Below are positions 9,960 to 19,484 of a stretch of DNA of 22,634 nucleotides, one piece after another. How positions within the stretch are numbered: position 1 is the stretch's first letter; every line of letters begins with the position of its first letter. Below the pieces are notes generated by a model, which worked only from the letters and a program-made list of their open reading frames with translations, had not been told where the DNA came from and did no database searches. Made by a program: the position numbers and the translations under genes. Source of the stretch: a virus; the IMG/VR virus record IMGVR_UViG_3300044684_000111, positions 1 to 22,634 of that record, one strand, 5' to 3'.

Positions 9960-10465
9960 TGCCGCGCTTCGCCGGCATCGGGTACTACGACCTTTCGAGC
10001 CTCTACACTTCGTACATCGCCAAGCAGAAGCAGCACCTGGTCGAGAGCCCCGCTCCCCACGACCACAAGGTTCGGGTTCTGGAGCTGCTTCACGACCGCG
10101 AAGAGAGCGAGGTCTTCAAGGGCTGGAAGTCAGCGCAAAGCCTGCTCCACAAGGTAGGCCAGCGGCTTACCGCGCTCCCGCAGCCGGCGGAAATCGTCTT
10201 CGCCTACATTCGTGCGTTCGAGCCCGGCGCGTACAGCGCGTGGTTCCGTGACGACATGATCGACCCCGCAGGTTTCATGCGGGTGCATGCCCTCTTGAAC
10301 CCCTCCCCGAGCTTCCGCCTCTACTCTGATGAAGAGGTGCTGGCGCCGCAGCCGTGGGTCGCAACGGTAGTCGACCACAAGGGCATGGTGTCCGCCTCAA
10401 ACCTGAACGCACCGAACACCGCTCACGAGCTGGTGCTGGAGCTGGCGCTCGATGTTGAAGGTTGA
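9959..10465 (+). CDS. Hypothetical protein before the ejection cassette, 168 aa
   Basis: Not recognised. The N-terminal half is mixed helical (YYDLSSLYTSYIAKQKQHL, LELLHDREESEVFKGWKSA). The second half has a Trp/Phe-containing segment (AYSAWFRDDMIDPAGFM) and ends in beta-like APNTAHELVLELAL. ATG at 9959 overlaps the previous stop by 1 nt and the end overlaps the next gene by 14 nt (10452-10465). It precedes a GNAT-like gene, as small proteins do at the start of T7-like internal-virion modules, but no similarity can be claimed from sequence. Confidence 0.65.
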   Translation: MPRFAGIGYYDLSSLYTSYIAKQKQHLVESPAPHDHKVRVLELLHDREESEVFKGWKSAQSLLHKVGQRLTALPQPAEIVFAYIRAFEPGAYSAWFRDDMIDPAGFMRVHALLNPSPSFRLYSDEEVLAPQPWVATVVDHKGMVSASNLNAPNTAHELVLELALDVEG

Positions 10466-10907
10466 GTCTTCTTCTCTTGACCGGATGATCGAGGACGGCC
10501 TCGAAACCCTGATGTACGCGCACTGGATCGAGTGCTCTATCGACCGCGAGGCGGTGCCTTTCGATCCTGACTGGAACCTCGGGCGGACGATGGAGCGCTG
10601 CGGAGTTCTCAAGTGCTTCGCGTTGCGCGACGACGGCGAGCTGGTCGGTTACTCGATCTTCGAGGTATCGTCACACCTGAATTTCAAGACCACCACCTAC
10701 GCATGGAACAATGGCATCTATGTTCGGCCCGAGAGCCGCAAGGGCAACGCCGGGATCAAGCTGATCGTCGAGAGCGAGAGGTGGCTCAAAGCCGATGGCG
10801 TTAAAAAGTTCGTCTACCTCGCCCCCAGCAACTCGGCGCTGAACGATCTTCTCGTCAAGGACGGCTACCGGCCTTCCGAGACCTATTACACGAAGCTGGC
10901 GGAGTAG
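10452..10907 (+). CDS. GNAT-like acetyltransferase / gp13-type internal virion protein, 151 aa
   Basis: Fold features of the GNAT superfamily: a strand-strand pair (LKCFALRDDGELVGYSIFEV, 53-72), then NNGIYVRPESRKGNAGIKLI (86-105), which matches the beta4 strand and acetyl-CoA pyrophosphate loop, then a helix (ESERWLKADGVKKF) and a late strand with LAPSNSALNDLLVKDGYR. The loop KGNAG is only an approximate match to R/Q-x-x-G-x-G/A, so activity is uncertain. In many T7-like phages the first internal virion protein (gp13 position) is GNAT-like. Here it likewise precedes three large ejection-type genes. It overlaps the upstream gene by 14 nt. Confidence 0.7.
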   Translation: MLKVESSSLDRMIEDGLETLMYAHWIECSIDREAVPFDPDWNLGRTMERCGVLKCFALRDDGELVGYSIFEVSSHLNFKTTTYAWNNGIYVRPESRKGNAGIKLIVESERWLKADGVKKFVYLAPSNSALNDLLVKDGYRPSETYYTKLAE

Positions 10908-12189: not shown

Positions 12190-13244
12190 TGGTCGGGTTT
12201 CTTGGAGGACTGGCGCAGGGCGCCGCGGGGCTTCCCGACGAAATCGGGCAACTCATCGCCTTAAAGAAGCTGAACCAGGCCAAGGCGGCGAACTTCAACG
12301 CGCTCACCGCCCAAGGCGGCGGCGCTCCCGCCCCGCAGGCCGCACCTCCTCCCCCTGCTGCCGCGCTCGCCGCAATAGGCAAGCAGCCGATGGCTGCTGG
12401 TCCGCAACCGGCGCCGCAGCGCGACCCGCTGGCGCCTCTCCCCGCTGCTCAACCCGCTCCTGCGCCCCCGCCGGGACAGTCGCAGGGAACGGGTGGCGCA
12501 GAAGACCCCACCGGAATGTCGGCCGATCCGCGAGTGACGGACCCGTGGAAAGAGGGGCAGAGCATCCTCACCAACATGGCGCAGAGCCTCAAGCGGGCGA
12601 ACCCGAAGGCCGACCCGCGAACACTGGCCGATGCGCTCGAGATGCAAATCGAGGAGGTCAAGGGAATCACCCCGACGACGAAAGCGTACATGGGCGCGCA
12701 GGTAGGGATGCTGAAGCAGCAGGCCGATTTGCAGTTCAAGATGTCGAAGCTGCAATCCGAGAACGACTATCACATGAAATACCTGCTCCAGAAGGGCCTC
12801 ACGGCGCAGCAGGTGGAAGCGGAGCGCGAGCGGCATGATCGAGCGGTCGAAAGCATCTGGTCGGATCGCGAGGACGCTTACCAGCAGAGCGTCGACTACC
12901 AGCACGAAGACCGGCAAAGCGCGGAAGCCGGCCGCAACACGCGCAACGCGGCCAACATCGGCAGTCGCGAGAACATCGCCGCTGGTCGCAACGCCACTCA
13001 GGAAGACATCGCCGGCCGCCGGTCGAGGGACAGCAAGTACCGCGCCGATCAGGGCTTCCGCGGCGCGCAGGCTCGAAGCGGCATCCCTGTGGACCCTGCC
13101 CCCGATGCGGGAGACACTGGCGGTGGCATCCCCGCGAACGTGCAGCAGTTCGCCAAGCAGCACGGGCTCACCATCATCCGGCGTCGCGCCGATGGGAAGT
13201 ACGACGCCAAGGACAAGAACGGCACGGTAGGCGTCATTGGCTGA
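12189..13244 (+). CDS. Internal virion / DNA-ejection protein, gp15 position, 351 aa
   Basis: Three zones are visible. Residues 1-40 are a helical start (MVGFLGGLAQGAAGLPDEIG). Residues ~42-105 are a disordered Pro/Ala/Gly-rich linker. Residues ~115-300 are long charged helices (LKQQADLQFKMSKLQSENDY, then Arg/Asn/Glu-rich). The C-terminal ~40 residues form a small beta unit (HGLTIIRRRADGKYDAKDKN). Position between a gp14-like and a gp16-like protein suggests a second ejection protein. No enzymatic motif is seen. It overlaps its neighbours by 1 nt upstream and 8 nt downstream. Confidence 0.55.
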   Translation: MVGFLGGLAQGAAGLPDEIGQLIALKKLNQAKAANFNALTAQGGGAPAPQAAPPPPAAALAAIGKQPMAAGPQPAPQRDPLAPLPAAQPAPAPPPGQSQGTGGAEDPTGMSADPRVTDPWKEGQSILTNMAQSLKRANPKADPRTLADALEMQIEEVKGITPTTKAYMGAQVGMLKQQADLQFKMSKLQSENDYHMKYLLQKGLTAQQVEAERERHDRAVESIWSDREDAYQQSVDYQHEDRQSAEAGRNTRNAANIGSRENIAAGRNATQEDIAGRRSRDSKYRADQGFRGAQARSGIPVDPAPDAGDTGGGIPANVQQFAKQHGLTIIRRRADGKYDAKDKNGTVGVIG

Positions 13245-16200
13245 TGGGCTTACCTTTACCCCGACGAAGCAACCGGACACGGGCTTAAAGTTCACGAAAT
13301 TCTCGTCGGACGGTAGCGCCGCCGTTCGCTCCGTCTTCCCTAACGCCGTTATCACCAGCGGTCATCGGACCAACGGCGTCGGCTCTCCCTACGACGACCA
13401 CCACTTGTCGAACGGGGCCGTGGACGTTGCGCCGATCAAGGGCATGACCTTCGATCAGTTCGTTAGGAAATTGAAGTCGGCGGGCTACCCGGTCATTCAG
13501 GCAATCGACGAAGTGAACCACCCGTCGAAGTGGTCGACCGGCCCCCACTGGCACGTCGCACTCGGCGAGCATCCGAGCGGCCTTTCGTTCACACCGACAC
13601 AAAAGCCCGACAAAGCCCCGCAGAAAGCGTTGAGCTTCACGCCGGTCAATCATACCACCCCGGCCCCGAAACCTTCTCCACGGCCCGCAAATCAAGCCCC
13701 AGCGGCCGATCCAAGCCTAATCTCGTCGCTGGAGACCGGCGCGGGCAATGCGCTCCACTCCGTTTGGGACACGGTACGCCACCCGATCGCGTCGGCTGAG
13801 AGCGCGGCGAAGGCGGGCTACCAGGCGATCCGCCACCCGGGCGAGACCCTCAAGAACGTTGTCGAGCCGGTCGCAGGGGTCGGCATGGCGGCGATGGACG
13901 CGGCGAGCCGAAAGCTGGAGGGCCACGACTTCGCAACCGGCCCTCACGCGAAAGCACTGGCGGAACAGTACCGGCCCTGGGTCGACAAGCCCTGGTCGCA
14001 ATTCAAGAAAGAGGTTCGCGAGCATCCGATCGCAACCGCCGCTACGGTTATCCCAGGCGGTCGGATGCTTGGGAAGCTCGGCGCTCGTGGCGTCGAGGCC
14101 GCGCGGCTCGCTTCTCTATCGCCCGAGGAGCGGGCCGCGTGGCGAGCGCGACGGGCCGAAGAGGCGAAGCAGGCCGAGGCCTACCGAGCGATCCAGAGGC
14201 AGACGGTGGGCCGCCATTCGCTCGACCGCGACCGGGCCATCGCCACCTTGCAGAAGCACCAAAGGGTGATCGGCAACGCACCTGTCGCCGACCAGCGTTC
14301 GATCGTTGCCGCGATCGAGGCGGGACCGCGCGCCATCGCCAAGCTCCCCGAGCAGTACCGGCCGGCGGCGATGGACTTGCGGAAGGTGGCGAAGACCTAC
14401 CGCGCCAAGATCGAAGACGTGATGAAGAAGGACAAGGACGCGGGGCCGAACTTCATCGACAACTACTACGCCCACCTGTGGAAGCAGGACGGCAAGGCCA
14501 AGGCGTTCTTCTCGGGCAAGCAGGGGCATGGTGCGAACCTCAAGGGCCGCAAGTTCGCGACACTGGCGGAAGGGCTCGAACACGGGCTGACGCCGATCCA
14601 CGAGAACCCCCTCGACCAGATGTCGGCCTACGTCGACAACATGTCGAAGTTCCTGCAAGCCCACGACATTCAACGGCACATGCGGAGCGCCGGGCTCGCC
14701 AAGTGGGTGCCCGAGCGCGCGATCCCCGACAACCACATCAAGCTCGAAGGCATCAACACGACGCGCGAGGCGCGGACGATCCCCGGCAGCGTGGAAAACG
14801 ATACGCTCGACCGCCAGCTGGGCCGCCGGGTACTGGTCGCGCCCCGCAAGGCGGCGCTTATGTATAACCGTTTCGTCGATCCCGGCGCCGAAGCGAAGCT
14901 ACGACGAGCGGGCAAGACCGAGCAGGCCAACGCCTTCCGCTTCGCAAAAAGGGCAACCAATGCAACCTCTAACCTGGTCCTTTCTTTCTCGGGCTTCCAC
15001 CCGACGCTGGTGGCGGGCAAGGCAGTGGCGTCGGACCTCGGGAACGCGATCACTCACACGTTCCGAGGGGAGCCCGTCAAGGCTCTGAAGAACATCGCCC
15101 ACGCCCCGATCGCTCCAATCGCCCCGGTAATCGACAAGCTCCGCGGCAAGATCAGCATGAAAGGGCGGCTGCTCTCCGGCGACCAGGCGCTGACACAGGT
15201 AGACAAACTTTGGAGGGACGCGGGCGGCAGGCTCAAGAACGACTCGGGCTACCGCGCGTCGCTCCGGCCGAACCTGTGGACTTCCTTCCGGCGAGGCACG
15301 TTCAAACGTGATGTGACCGACATGGCGAAAGCTATCGCCGGGAAAGACAAGCACTGGACCGAGCGGGTGAGCGCCACCGCCGACGCCGCCGGCCGGATCA
15401 TGGACACGATGAGCAGCGCCATCTTCGACCACTTCGTTCCGGCGATGAAGCGGCAGGCGTTCGAGCGCGAGATGGCGGCGCAGCTAAAGCCGGGGATGAG
15501 CGAGGCCGCGCAGAAGGCTCTCGCGCGCAGGGTTATGGACAACATCTCGGGCCGCATGGGCGAGCTGGAGCGCGACAACATATTCTGGTCGCAGACCCGC
15601 TCCGACATCATGCGGCTGCTGGTGCTGTCGCCGTCGTGGCAGTACGGCGACTGGAAGCTCCTCACCGATGCGGCGGGGCCGAACAGGACCGGCCACGGGC
15701 TTGCGCAGGCGGCGGCAATCGTCGGCTCTTACTACCTGATGAACGGCATCGCTAATTACCTTCACACCGGCGAGCGTCCACAGGGGCAGGACTGGATCGC
15801 GTACCGTACCGGGGGGACGACCAGCGACCGCACCGGGGAGCATCCCGAGCGCGCCACCTTCCCGAGCGTAATGAAAGACGTGTTCAGCTTCTCCGACGAT
15901 CCGGTGAAGGAGGCTGAGAACAAGCAGGCTCCGCTCCCCCGTGCGATCGAGGAGCTGCTGACGAACAGCGACTGGCGCGACCAGCCGATTTACCGGCCTT
16001 CAGCGCTAAGCCCCGAGGAGCTTCCGGCCGGAGCGCCTGACAATCTCAAGGAGAACCGGGGACTGGCGGCGCTCGGGCACCTCGCCGGATCGTTCCTGCC
16101 AATCGGGACGCAGGACAACCCGAACGGCAAGCACTCGGGAATCAGCCGCACTGAGCAAATCCTGTTGGGTACGCGGCCGGCGGGGCAGAGGTTCTACGAT

Positions 16201-16299
16201 CCCGAGGGGTACGAGAGCTTCCAGAAGTACGCAGCGAAGAAGCGCGTCGAGGCCGAGATAAAGGCCAAGCGCCGCGACGACGCTAAGAAGAACCAATAG
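13237..16299 (+). CDS. Large ejection protein with N-terminal M15-like peptidase domain, gp16 position, 1020 aa
   Basis: Start is TTG at 13237: the frame closes at 13228-13230, and no ATG or GTG follows before the peptidase domain. Residues ~17-112 resemble Zn peptidases of the VanY/M15 group: ITSGHRTNG (39-47), HHLSNGAVDVAP (55-66, giving His56 and Asp63) and GPHWHVALG (102-110, giving His104/His106). This would cut peptidoglycan cross-links as DNA enters the cell. FTPT-type repeats flank it (LTFTPT, LSFTPTQ, LSFTPV), followed by a Pro-rich linker to ~160. The remaining ~850 residues are helical, with amphipathic and hydrophobic stretches (AAIVGSYYLMNGIANYL), typical of the largest internal virion protein. 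The end is Lys/Arg-rich. Confidence 0.75.
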   Translation: MADGLTFTPTKQPDTGLKFTKFSSDGSAAVRSVFPNAVITSGHRTNGVGSPYDDHHLSNGAVDVAPIKGMTFDQFVRKLKSAGYPVIQAIDEVNHPSKWSTGPHWHVALGEHPSGLSFTPTQKPDKAPQKALSFTPVNHTTPAPKPSPRPANQAPAADPSLISSLETGAGNALHSVWDTVRHPIASAESAAKAGYQAIRHPGETLKNVVEPVAGVGMAAMDAASRKLEGHDFATGPHAKALAEQYRPWVDKPWSQFKKEVREHPIATAATVIPGGRMLGKLGARGVEAARLASLSPEERAAWRARRAEEAKQAEAYRAIQRQTVGRHSLDRDRAIATLQKHQRVIGNAPVADQRSIVAAIEAGPRAIAKLPEQYRPAAMDLRKVAKTYRAKIEDVMKKDKDAGPNFIDNYYAHLWKQDGKAKAFFSGKQGHGANLKGRKFATLAEGLEHGLTPIHENPLDQMSAYVDNMSKFLQAHDIQRHMRSAGLAKWVPERAIPDNHIKLEGINTTREARTIPGSVENDTLDRQLGRRVLVAPRKAALMYNRFVDPGAEAKLRRAGKTEQANAFRFAKRATNATSNLVLSFSGFHPTLVAGKAVASDLGNAITHTFRGEPVKALKNIAHAPIAPIAPVIDKLRGKISMKGRLLSGDQALTQVDKLWRDAGGRLKNDSGYRASLRPNLWTSFRRGTFKRDVTDMAKAIAGKDKHWTERVSATADAAGRIMDTMSSAIFDHFVPAMKRQAFEREMAAQLKPGMSEAAQKALARRVMDNISGRMGELERDNIFWSQTRSDIMRLLVLSPSWQYGDWKLLTDAAGPNRTGHGLAQAAAIVGSYYLMNGIANYLHTGERPQGQDWIAYRTGGTTSDRTGEHPERATFPSVMKDVFSFSDDPVKEAENKQAPLPRAIEELLTNSDWRDQPIYRPSALSPEELPAGAPDNLKENRGLAALGHLAGSFLPIGTQDNPNGKHSGISRTEQILLGTRPAGQRFYDPEGYESFQKYAAKKRVEAEIKAKRRDDAKKNQ

Positions 16300-16435: not shown

Positions 16436-17773
16436 ATGAGGCTGCTGCTTGTCGACAACGCCGGGCTTATGACCGACTTCGCCCTGCGCTGTCAGGACGC
16501 AGGCCACGAGATTCGCTGGTACATTCGCCAGACGCGAACGACCGAAGGAATCGGCAAAGGGCTGCTCGTCGGCAAGAACCGGATGGTCGACGATTACCAG
16601 CCATGGGCTAGGTGGGCCGACCTCATCATGCTCGCCGACAACGTGCGCTACCTTCACGACATGGAGCGCTGGCGGCAGGAGGGGATTCCGGTCGTCGGCG
16701 CCTGTGTCGAGAGCGCCGCCTGGGAGACTGACCGCCACGCGGGGCAGAAGATATTGAAGTCGGTCGGGATCAAAGTTCCCCCCTACAAGATGTTCGACGA
16801 CTACGACCGCGCCATTGCCTACGTGAAGCGCGAGGGGCGCGCGTTCGTCTCCAAGCCCTGCGGCGATGAGGAGGACAAGAGCCTCTCCTACGTCGCGAAG
16901 TCGCCGGCCGACATGGCGTACATGCTGGAGCGGTGGAAGAAGAACCATCGCCACAAGGACGCTTTCATCCTGCAAGAGCGTGTAAACGGCATCGAGATGG
17001 CCGTGGGCGGCTGGTTCGGCCCCAACGGCTTCCTCCCCGGCTGGCACGAGAATTGGGAATTCAAGAAGCTCATGGCCGGAGACACCGGCCCGGCGACCGG
17101 CGAGATGGGTACGATCATCCGTGCGGTACCGAAGTCGAAGCTCGCCGACCTGGTGCTGAAGCCGGTCGAGCAGAAGCTCGCCGACCTCGACTACGTGGGC
17201 TACGTCGATGTCAACTGCATCATCGGCGAAGACGGTACGCCGTGGCCGCTGGAATTCACCATGCGACCGGGGTGGCCCACCTTCAACATTCAGATGGCGA
17301 TGCTGAAGGATGGCGAAGACCCTGCGAACTGGCTTTTCGAGCTGGCCGAGGGCCAGTCATGCGACCCCTTCAGGATGAACGAAGTGGCCTGCGGCGTAGT
17401 GATGGCGATACCCGATTTTCCGTTCAGCCGATTCACTCGCAAAGACGTTCATGGTATCCCTATTTACAAGCTCAACAATAAGAACCGCTACCGCCGCAAC
17501 CTGCACCCCTGCGAGGTGCAGCAGGGTGAAGCGCCAACCGATGTAAATGGAAAGGTGGTGACGCTGCCATGTCTGACGACGGCCGGAGATTACTTACTCG
17601 TAGGGAGCGGCGTCGGCTTGAGCGTGAGGGAAGCGCGGCAAAGAGCGTACCGAGCCCTCGAAAGTCTCGAAGTACCAAACAGCCCGTTCTGGAGACCCGA
17701 CATCGGGCAGCGCCTGAAGAAGCAGCTACCGACCCTTCAATCCCTGGGCTTCGCGAAGGGCTTGGCCTTCTAA
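16436..17773 (+). CDS. PurD-like ATP-grasp ligase, 445 aa
   Basis: Resembles phosphoribosylamine-glycine ligase (PurD) in length and order. There is a Rossmann-like N domain (MRLLLVDNAGLMTDF) and ATP-grasp blocks: EGRAFVSKPCGDEEDKSLS (133-151), FILQERVNGIEMAVGGWF (177-194), TGEMGTI (221-227) and PLEFTMRPGWP (271-281). A PurD-type C-terminal end follows (REARQRAYRALESLEV and FWRPDIGQRL). PurD joins glycine to phosphoribosylamine using ATP. Deviations: the N-terminal GGREHAL-type motif is absent, the Gly-rich loop after Lys140 is acidic, and the metal-site EFNxRxGDPE is EFTMRPGWPT (Asn to Thr, Asp to Trp). The substrate may therefore differ. GGGAG (16421-16425) is the likely ribosome site. The last 205 nt overlap the next gene. 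Confidence 0.75.
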   Translation: MRLLLVDNAGLMTDFALRCQDAGHEIRWYIRQTRTTEGIGKGLLVGKNRMVDDYQPWARWADLIMLADNVRYLHDMERWRQEGIPVVGACVESAAWETDRHAGQKILKSVGIKVPPYKMFDDYDRAIAYVKREGRAFVSKPCGDEEDKSLSYVAKSPADMAYMLERWKKNHRHKDAFILQERVNGIEMAVGGWFGPNGFLPGWHENWEFKKLMAGDTGPATGEMGTIIRAVPKSKLADLVLKPVEQKLADLDYVGYVDVNCIIGEDGTPWPLEFTMRPGWPTFNIQMAMLKDGEDPANWLFELAEGQSCDPFRMNEVACGVVMAIPDFPFSRFTRKDVHGIPIYKLNNKNRYRRNLHPCEVQQGEAPTDVNGKVVTLPCLTTAGDYLLVGSGVGLSVREARQRAYRALESLEVPNSPFWRPDIGQRLKKQLPTLQSLGFAKGLAF

Positions 17774-18069
17774 GCGACACCCCCGACTTCAACCTGCTGG
17801 TCCAGTCCAGCCTCGCGTTCGCGCGCGAGGTGATGGAGATGGTGCTCCCCGAGGACGCTCCAATCGCCGAACGGCTGAAGCTCATGGGGCTCAAGAAAGA
17901 GGTGATGGCCTCGGTGCTGTCGGCGGGGGTGCGCGTCAACGACGCGGCGCTCCGCAAGCAGGACAAGGATAAAGTCGGCGAGTTGCTCGCCAAGGTAAAA
18001 GGCAAGACCAGCCCCGAGCCGGAACCGGAGGTGTCCGAAAAGGTTACGATGAGCGACCTCTTCAACTAG
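17569..18069 (+). CDS. Hypothetical protein overlapping the ligase gene, 166 aa
   Basis: Not recognised. Residues 1-68 are read out of frame within the ligase gene and are Arg/Ser/Pro-rich and probably disordered (RRLLTRRERRRLEREGS). Residues ~69-166 are unique and look like a folded helical domain (SDTPDFNLLVQSSLAFAREV, RLKLMGLKKEVMASVLSAG, DKDKVGELLAKVKG) with an acidic tail. ATG at 17569 has GGAAAGG about 13 nt upstream. The next in-frame ATG is near 17833, which would cut into the helical domain. As last late gene it could be a small DNA-packaging protein, since T7 has its small terminase near this end of the late region, but no motif proves it. Confidence 0.65.
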   Translation: MSDDGRRLLTRRERRRLEREGSAAKSVPSPRKSRSTKQPVLETRHRAAPEEAATDPSIPGLREGLGLLSDTPDFNLLVQSSLAFAREVMEMVLPEDAPIAERLKLMGLKKEVMASVLSAGVRVNDAALRKQDKDKVGELLAKVKGKTSPEPEPEVSEKVTMSDLFN

Positions 18070-18212: not shown

Positions 18213-18260
18213 GTGTTGACATCGCAGGGGTCGCAAGTTCAATCCTTGCCACGCCCACCA
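18213..18260 (+). other. Probable attP core: 3' part of a tRNA-Val(GAC)-like gene
   Basis: Reads as the last 48 nt of a tRNA. It contains anticodon loop TTGACAT (18216-18222, anticodon GAC), 3' anticodon stem CGCAG (18223-18227), variable GGGTC, T-stem GCAAG/CTTGC with loop TTCAATC (18233-18249), acceptor 3' strand CACGCCC, discriminator A and CCA (18258-18260). The matching 5' acceptor strand, D arm and a well-paired 5' anticodon stem are missing upstream, so it is not a working tRNA. Such fragments restore the host tRNA when a phage integrates. The integrase gene ends 15 nt downstream and phage genes lie on both sides, which marks attP rather than attL or attR. Confidence 0.8.
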
Positions 18261-18275: not shown

Positions 18276-19484
18276 TTAGGCCGCTTTTCGGCCGTGCGTG
18301 TCGGGGTCTTGCGCGGTATCCGCGCGGTAAAAGGCCCCCGGCACCTTCGCCTCTATCTCGTCGATTATTTGCTCAATACTTGCGCGAGCGTTCGCGAGGT
18401 AGTCGGGTCGGAGCGGCGCATAAAGCTCTGAGACCGAATCGAATTTGCGGTGCCCCAGGAACGCCTCGACCTCCGGCCAGTCGGTCGACCGCATCCGGCT
18501 GCGAAGCAAATCGGCCATCGAACGGCGCACCAGCTTGGCACCCGATTCGCGATCACCGGGGAGGCCGATGTCGGCGGCCATTGTGTCCCATGCCTTGCGA
18601 ATCGAGTTGACGGGGATGATCGGCCCCTTGGGGAGCGAGTTGAGCCAGTCGACGCCCTGCTTGGCGACCGGCACCACCGCGCGGTACTTCTTCGTCTGCC
18701 TGCGGTTCTTCGGGTTCAAATTGAAGATGTTGGCACCGGGGTGCCATTGGTCGCGAGCAGGATCGGTGCTCGCCTCCAGCACCGCGTCAGGGCGGCCGAG
18801 CGTCAGCACCGACAACCGGAGGAAGTAGAGGAGGTTCTTCCGTTTCTCGCCTTCGAGCGCGTAGGCGAACATCTGCGCCAGCGTGTCGACGTTTGCGCGG
18901 TAAAGCGGGGTCCGGTTGACCTCCTTGGCAGGGATCGGCCGGAAGCGCGCTCCGTGGTCGTCAGCGTAGTTGATGGCCGCGGCGAGCTGGAGGACGCTGT
19001 TCTCGATCGTCGACAATGCCCGCTCGCGCTCCGCGTCCCCGGCTTTGACCGGCTTGGCCGCCAACCAGCGGCGGAACTTGTCGATCCAATCCTTGTCGAC
19101 CTGGTTGCAGCGCACCTCCTCCTGCTCCGTCTCCTCGATGTAGTCGGTGACGTGCTTGAGGCGGTGGCGGATCGCGTCGGCGCCGGGCAGCAGCTCCTTC
19201 GAGGCTGCGTACCGGGACATAGCGTCGAGGACTAGCGGACTGCGGACCCCTTGGATCGGTTGACCACAGGTCGGGCAAAAGGAACGACCTTGCGATTCGT
19301 CGAACATTTTGTCGACGACTTTGGCGGCTTCTCCAAGGTCCGTCGTGCCCGAGCTAATGCTTCTTTCCCGTTTTCGCTCGGGGTCGTACCAGGTGATGAT
19401 GAGGGAGTCGCGTCCGTCCCTCGGCGGGTCGAGCCGATATTTCCCTCGCTGGTAGAGGGGCTTGGGGCGTTTCGCTCTCGGCAT
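18276..19484 (-). CDS. int: Tyrosine recombinase (phage integrase), 402 aa
   Basis: Catalyses site-specific integration at the adjacent tRNA-derived site. Residues ~12-60 look like an arm-binding domain (YRLDPPRDGRDSLIITWYD). A lone CPTC (70-73) follows. A core-binding helical region spans ~85-180. The catalytic domain has Arg231 (LTLGRPDAVL), the Lys region KNRRQTKKYRAVVPV (259-273), Arg320 in AKLVRRSMADL, His345 in AFLGHRKF and the probable nucleophile Tyr355 (VSELYAPL). The usual His of the H-x-x-R motif is Lys317 here. It is the last gene of the minus-strand replication operon and overlaps the upstream small gene by 253 nt. The start ATG at 19484 has only a weak ribosome site (GAAGC). Confidence 0.88.
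   Translation of the reverse strand: MPRAKRPKPLYQRGKYRLDPPRDGRDSLIITWYDPERKRERSISSGTTDLGEAAKVVDKMFDESQGRSFCPTCGQPIQGVRSPLVLDAMSRYAASKELLPGADAIRHRLKHVTDYIEETEQEEVRCNQVDKDWIDKFRRWLAAKPVKAGDAERERALSTIENSVLQLAAAINYADDHGARFRPIPAKEVNRTPLYRANVDTLAQMFAYALEGEKRKNLLYFLRLSVLTLGRPDAVLEASTDPARDQWHPGANIFNLNPKNRRQTKKYRAVVPVAKQGVDWLNSLPKGPIIPVNSIRKAWDTMAADIGLPGDRESGAKLVRRSMADLLRSRMRSTDWPEVEAFLGHRKFDSVSELYAPLRPDYLANARASIEQIIDEIEAKVPGAFYRADTAQDPDTHGRKAA

Follow-up and report, generated by a model that had tools for sequence, protein, structure and literature searches.

The window, which is the whole IMG/VR virus record of 22,634 bases analysed here, encodes an ATP-grasp protein of PurD architecture that, judged from its profile score, residues and tree position, appears not to be PurD (GAR synthetase). 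It belongs instead to a separate family recognisable by the motif PLEFTxRxG[WY]P, and we put at about 60% the probability that it is a carboxylate-amine ligase whose substrate is not a purine and whose gene is tied to the ejection module of the phage. An earlier, sequence-only reading of this DNA had suggested that the protein is not PurD and is an amide ligase acting on a different substrate. The first of these claims is borne out by a tree position outside PurD, by changed glycine-pocket residues and by relatives that occur either without PurD and PurF or beside a true PurD, and the second would fit the retained ATP-grasp residues and the biosynthetic-looking clusters in which some cellular relatives lie.

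Table 1. Features of the ligase gene and of the surrounding phage genes in the window.
Feature	Position	Strand	Basis
GNAT acetyltransferase, first gene of the conserved module	10452..10907	+	profile matches, gene clustering
Internal virion protein (gp7/needle-like position), 425 aa	10912..12189	+	cluster cl3 in 7/8 compared phage sequences; position as in Pam1
Injectosome protein, gp20-like position, 351 aa	12189..13244	+	position only, versus VSN-002 and Pam1
gp16-like ejection protein, 1020 aa, TTG start	13237..16299	+	cluster cl2 in 7/8 compared phage sequences; ~90 aa at the N-terminus give matches to the translocase gene of VSN-002 and to the injectosome region of Pam1
PurD-like ATP-grasp ligase ('PLEFT' family), 445 aa; ATG at 16436, stop at 17773	16436..17773	+	profile matches, PDB matches, alignment, model
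Loop after strand 1, residues 8-14: NAGLMTD replaces the PurD GGREHA loop	16457..16477	+	alignment with true PurD, model secondary structure
ATP loop, residues 140-149 KPCGDEEDKS: K140 and K148 invariant in phages, acidic run variable	16853..16882	+	alignments
Residues 203-226 WHENWEFKKLMAGDTGPATGEMGT: E208 for the glycine-binding Asp, K210 kept, GEMG for GGMG	17042..17113	+	alignment; residue roles from PMC8880213
Family signature, residues 271-286 PLEFTMRPGWPTFNIQ, replaces EFNxRxGDPE; E273 and R277 retained; N>T275, D>W280, E>T282	17246..17293	+	alignments
C-domain end RPDIG, residues 420-424, common to PurD	17693..17707	+	alignment
attP core: tRNA-Val(GAC) 3' part, anticodon arm to CCA	18213..18260	+	ARAGORN calls a tRNA-Val(gac) once this part is joined to the L089 junction; sequence also found in relative G437
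Integrase	18276..19484	-	phrog_1 E=8e-7, Phage_int_SAM_5

Homology to PurD and predicted fold

The PurD homology of the window protein, as claimed in the sequence-only reading, is well beyond chance. Except for its first ~75 residues, the full protein matches the PurD profile TIGR00877 with 87.3 bits (E=9e-25), which does not reach the curated PurD cut-off of 288 bits. The match to Pfam GARS_A lies above the family cut-off (40 bits; cut-off 27) and that to GARS_C below it (22 bits; cut-off 34.8), the top PDB matches are all PurD, and the C-terminal RPDIG is shared. An AlphaFold2 model built with 29 sequences (pLDDT 91.3, pTM 0.90) has PurD as its best fold in Foldseek (E 3e-28, TM 0.75), and in VIA-align it superposes on PurD 2yw2 over 392 residues (Z 33.8, rmsd 3.2, 21% identity), with Z well under this, about 23.8, for PurT and PurK. 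On this model the protein is predicted to carry the complete PurD fold. The fold of the ATP-grasp superfamily is likewise present in the model, and K140, E187, K210 and E273 are invariant in the alignment.

The open reading frame is real and under strong purifying constraint, with dN/dS of 0.11-0.12 against three close relatives. A PHROGs search with the ligase protein returned no family, a structure search of BFVD returned no high-TM-score match over the whole model, and megablast of the window against phages returned no match.

Active-site residues

Residues were compared by aligning 42 phage proteins with 36 cellular relatives and 20 true PurDs. Since the PurD rows were selected on the GGRE[HS] motif, its conservation among them is by construction; switches other than that motif are unaffected by the choice. 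Phage, cellular and PurD rows have in common E97, K140, K148, E187, K210, E273, R277, P281 and the C-terminal R420, D422 and I423. In Aquifex PurD, ATP is bound by K103, K143, E185, E192 and K214 and glycine by D212, R287 and E292, and the PRA-binding mode of PurD is not known (PMC8880213). The ATP residues correspond to R100, K140, Q180, E187 and K210 in the window protein, and the glycine residues to E208, R277 and T282. The comparison that the sequence-only reading had recommended finds the ATP residues K140, E187, K210, E273 and R277 retained and one of three glycine-site residues kept in the A. aeolicus alignment.

The phages, Micrarchaeota and Patescibacteria share six switches: K>R100, E>Q180, D>E208, G>E223, Y>D258 and N>T275. 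The first reading had overlooked four of them (D>E208, E>Q180, G>E223 and Y>D258), which are just as fixed among the phage proteins. The sphingomonad clade does not retain K148, Q180 or D258, so these three are not universal. The GGREHA loop is present in the PurD rows and absent from all phage and cellular family rows, which extends to every relative the loss first noticed in the window protein. The other replacement noticed there, EFTMRPGWPT for EFNxRxGDPE, is general too, E-F-T-x-R-x-G-[WY]-P being strictly or almost strictly conserved across the phage and cellular relatives. The acidic CGDEEDKS run fared differently: it does align with ADGLAAGKG of PurD, the Gly-rich loop that the first reading expected there, but it was rejected as a family signature because relatives have YDESDKS, GNEDKA or GEADKT at this position, with K148 the sole invariant residue.

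Family-specific residues of the N-terminal domain are D14, W60, D62 and D68, of which D14 and D68 lie just behind strands, where PurD has its loops, in the secondary structure of the model. These extra acidic side chains would point to a substrate of cationic or amino type.

Relatives and phylogeny

Relatives of the window protein occur on 344 IMG/VR contigs and in one GenBank phage record (MW202796, 42.5%); genome scans also gave phage copies borne on MAGs. Cellular relatives were found in 29 of 146 genomes of the Micrarchaeota group, in 11 of 287 of the Patescibacteria group and in 10 of 397 of the Sphingomonas family group, the last besides a prophage copy in genome G004 (contig L089). These groups are named after the record titles of L089, L094 and L095. 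Plasmid-borne relatives are present in Sphingomonas daechungensis, Roseomonas haemaphysalidis and Halarchaeum. A 398-genome sample of the phylum added no match at E<=1e-50, which suggests that the clade is rare in proteobacteria, though weaker matches may exist. The cellular relatives score about 56-127 bits with TIGR00877, against the cut-off of 288. Three matches were set aside as ordinary PurD: the phage matches Y11 and MT838306, which have an intact GGREH, and a twelfth match in the Patescibacteria group (G215/L119).

In a maximum-likelihood tree (quick search, SH-aLRT; unrooted, with long branches meeting at the PurD join), the PurD rows stand together on one side of a branch with support 100*, so that in the phylogeny proposed as a check the protein does not lie inside the PurD clade. 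The phage proteins form one clade (98*), and the relatives from CPR/Micrarchaeota, Sphingomonas/Roseomonas and Halarchaeum fall outside PurD.

Several cellular copies have unusual forms. A PurD-like ORF of ~790 aa in the Micrarchaeota group (L180 6216-8585, G435) contains an insertion of roughly 1 kb at the GxxTGExG loop that may be an intein, and some proteins of this group (L094, L153, L173-L177 and L179) have long KE-rich N-terminal extensions. A Patescibacterium (L131 7202-9946, G140) carries two PurD-like genes in tandem.

A true PurD over the cut-off is present beside the relative in 19 of the 40 Patescibacteria and Micrarchaeota carrier genomes, where the relative is therefore a paralogue. 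In another 19 of the 40, neither PurD nor PurF reaches its cut-off, a number that falls to about 15 without the near-threshold G075, G079, G093 and G398 and that may include incomplete MAGs. One of these genomes, G311, is about 0.8 Mb in size and carries the gene on a 771-kb contig. G270 has PurF and no recognised PurD, and here the PurD-like protein might stand in for PurD.

Gene neighbourhoods of the cellular relatives

The eleven sphingomonad loci (L376-L385 and L387) encode, all within about 3 kb, a class-I methyltransferase (9 of 11), a haem-oxygenase-like oxidase (8 of 11; PF14518, E about 1e-42) and a SET domain protein (8 of 11). This conserved four-gene arrangement is possibly an undescribed biosynthetic cluster. 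The Roseomonas gene adjoins genes for a type III PKS, an aminotransferase, a methyltransferase and an FAD monooxygenase. ATP-grasp amino-acid ligases encoded next to oxidases of the haem-oxygenase-like kind form a known arrangement and make small peptides such as mangotoxin (PMC13185094). The sphingomonad and Roseomonas neighbours suggest small-molecule biosynthesis, although the sphingomonad clusters need not mirror the role of the protein in phages.

The neighbourhoods compared in Patescibacteria and Micrarchaeota revealed no function because they are not conserved. The one exception to this lack of conservation around the PurD-like gene is an M28/M20-like hydrolase gene, which adjoins it in several Micrarchaeota (L153, L158, L159, L160 and L165). 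A polyamine link, considered for a Patescibacterium locus (L130) with neighbours that by eye resemble a decarboxylase and saccharopine dehydrogenase, was dropped since it was unseen elsewhere.

Place of the gene in the phages

In phages the PurD-like ligase is the last gene of a podoviral GNAT/injectosome module, and many phages of soil and freshwater have it immediately after the genes of their DNA-ejection proteins. It follows the internal virion proteins on the same strand in six near-complete relatives, in MW202796 and in the window; the BLASTP overlap of MW202796 with the other phages is limited to terminase, GNAT and the PurD-like gene, and the gene order is nonetheless the same. Among 57 gp16-like loci, the PurD-like gene lies behind the gp16-like gene in 30, a very diverged relative in one and neither in 23, and three loci are too short; the scan lists closer relatives first, so that 30 of the 54 informative loci is not a population estimate. 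The gene overlaps the gp16-like stop by 4 nt in 10 of the 30 and by 1 nt in two, and the others are gapped, some with small ORFs between. Since 24 of the 54 have no close relative at this place, the gene is an accessory member of the injectosome module, and since 8 of 25 TerL-related records of at least 40 kb are without it (17 have it), it is not essential to the phage lineage. The very diverged protein (L357 8527-9774) has an altered active site, lies in the same place behind the ejection gene and has an unreliable tree position (branch 5.4). The gp16-like protein of the window starts (13237-13560) with SGHRTNG...DDHHLSNGAVDV, which is common to the Pam1 and VSN-002 sequences and by eye has the look of an M15-type peptidase.

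The position assigned earlier, at the end of the virion genes, holds: the gene comes after the GNAT and injectosome genes, is among the last before the attachment site and converges on the integrase and replication genes. The first reading had missed both the gp16-like ejection gene directly upstream and attP directly downstream. On L089, a MAG contig labelled Sphingomonas, the matching 5' half of tRNA-Val(GAC) lies behind the PurD-like gene, and the junction, at about 6190, crosses in the anticodon arm. This prophage ends at the tRNA about 0.45 kb behind the gene, and the attP of the window is 0.44 kb behind. The junction points to a Sphingomonas host for the closest relatives, and because the window has attP and an integrase and the L089 half completes the tRNA, its phage is probably temperate in sphingomonads. 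In G440, G441, G448 and G453 no integrase was recognised adjoining the gene, and its position is unchanged. A small ORF behind the gene in the window (17569-18069), similar to one after the gene in L089, has no Pfam match.

Proposed mechanism and alternative explanations

We propose that MgATP, held by K140, E187, K210 and E273, would phosphorylate a small carboxylic acid, probably resembling an amino acid and bound by R277 and E208, and that the acyl phosphate would then be attacked by an amine. Formation of an acyl phosphate and then an amide is expected from ATP-grasp chemistry and the retained residues. The amine would be other than phosphoribosylamine, because the GGREHA loop is gone and family-specific residues (D14, W60, D62, D68, E223 and D258) are found instead. 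With R277 and an acidic side chain retained at 208, glycine might serve as the acid as well. The ligase, produced together with the ejection proteins, would make an amide-linked small molecule or amidate a target, acting either late in the cell that produces it or, should it be packaged, on entry.

It is highly improbable that the protein is a functional PurD, that is, a purine-boosting auxiliary metabolic gene product diverged only because it is viral. The full PurD fold and the GARS_A match would suit such a role, and 'purD'/GART has been counted among viral purine-synthesis auxiliary metabolic genes in snow and ocean viruses (PMC11097641, PMC11360552). However, the protein scores 87 bits against a cut-off of 288, has lost the GGREHA loop and the conserved Asn, Asp and Glu of EFNxRxGDPE, has most of its replacements in common with cellular paralogues, lies outside PurD on the tree, and has relatives beside true PurD or in genomes without PurF and PurD. 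The earlier argument that a late gene would not serve purine synthesis is weak by itself. Purine-enzyme paralogues do have a precedent in phage DNA modification, PurZ being a PurA relative used for 2-aminoadenine genomes, and the phage group has its own polymerase and primase. A PurZ analogue making a modified nucleotide or DNA base, late or before packaging, is nevertheless very unlikely, and this suggestion of the sequence-only reading finds no support: the ligase gene travels with the ejection module rather than with replication genes, the scanned early genes of the closest near-complete relative (G437) gave matches to helicase, exonuclease, SSB and polymerase with no modification gene recognised among them, and Micrarchaeota, Patescibacteria and sphingomonads carry the gene on chromosomes.

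The conserved place behind the gp16-like gene, often overlapping it, would also accord with modification of a protein or envelope target, either the ejection proteins or, late in infection, the wall or surface of the host cell (for superinfection exclusion), the kind of role suggested for the phiEco32 amidoligases; cell-wall modification has been put forward for other phage amidoligase/GATase genes (PMC10580990, citing Iyer et al. 2009). This possibility is doubtful, as PurD and then PurK/PurT, the nearest relatives of solved structure, have small-molecule substrates and the sphingomonad and Roseomonas neighbours point to small-molecule chemistry. The proximity of the gene to the prophage edge in L089 and to attP in the window is what would be expected of a lysogenic-conversion (moron) gene that serves the host and not the virion; such a role is improbable, given the same placement in the four genomes with no integrase recognised next to the gene, the location on the late strand and the overlap with the gp16-like stop in many phages. 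A non-purine ligase attached to the ejection module could finally be packaged with the ejection proteins and injected at entry, where it might produce or use up a small molecule with an amide link, perhaps disarming a signal of the host or preconditioning the cell. Late expression would then be no obstacle to early function, and the family is common to Micrarchaeota and Patescibacteria, but this remains a long shot. Many members of both groups live attached to host cells.

Comparison with known systems

A search of the open-access literature, with subscription papers outside its scope, gave no description of the ligase family or of its phage synteny. The family, the synteny and the implied misannotation of 'purD' auxiliary metabolic genes are apparently new, in that we found none of them described in the open literature. 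Viral 'purD' genes of the PLEFT kind should not count as purine metabolism and, because this large group appears not to be PurD, some published counts may be wrong. One unexplored ligase family links phage ejection modules, Micrarchaeota, Patescibacteria and sphingomonad biosynthetic-looking clusters, of which the small four-gene clusters offer a practical route to the substrate.

The ligase resembles PurD (TIGR00877; PDB 2yw2, 2qk4 and 1gso) in length, domain architecture, K140, E187, K210, E273, R277 and the C-terminal RxDIG. Unlike PurD, to which it is about 20% identical, it has no GGREHA loop, carries the switches K>R, E>Q, D>E, G>E, Y>D, N>T and D>W/Y, scores below the family cut-off and has relatives that also occur where no de novo purine genes are recognised. 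Its cellular counterparts are the uncharacterised 'phosphoribosylglycinamide synthetase C domain-containing proteins' of sphingomonads, Roseomonas, Halarchaeum, Micrarchaeota and Patescibacteria, which belong to the same PLEFTxRxG[WY]P family at about 30% identity. These differ in being chromosomal or plasmid-borne and in lying singly or in methyltransferase/oxidase/SET clusters, not beside ejection genes. Mangotoxin MboC/MboD-type ATP-grasp amino-acid ligases are alike in amide chemistry, and the sphingomonad neighbourhood is of the same kind; the likeness is one of chemistry and genome context and implies no membership. Pseudanabaena phage Pam1 and Sphingopyxis phage VSN-002 have tail-spike/pectate-lyase-type genes behind the large protein and no annotated PurD-like gene; in the order of portal, coat, GNAT (in Pam1), needle/gp7, translocase and large ejection protein, their P22-type injectosome module is like that of the window.
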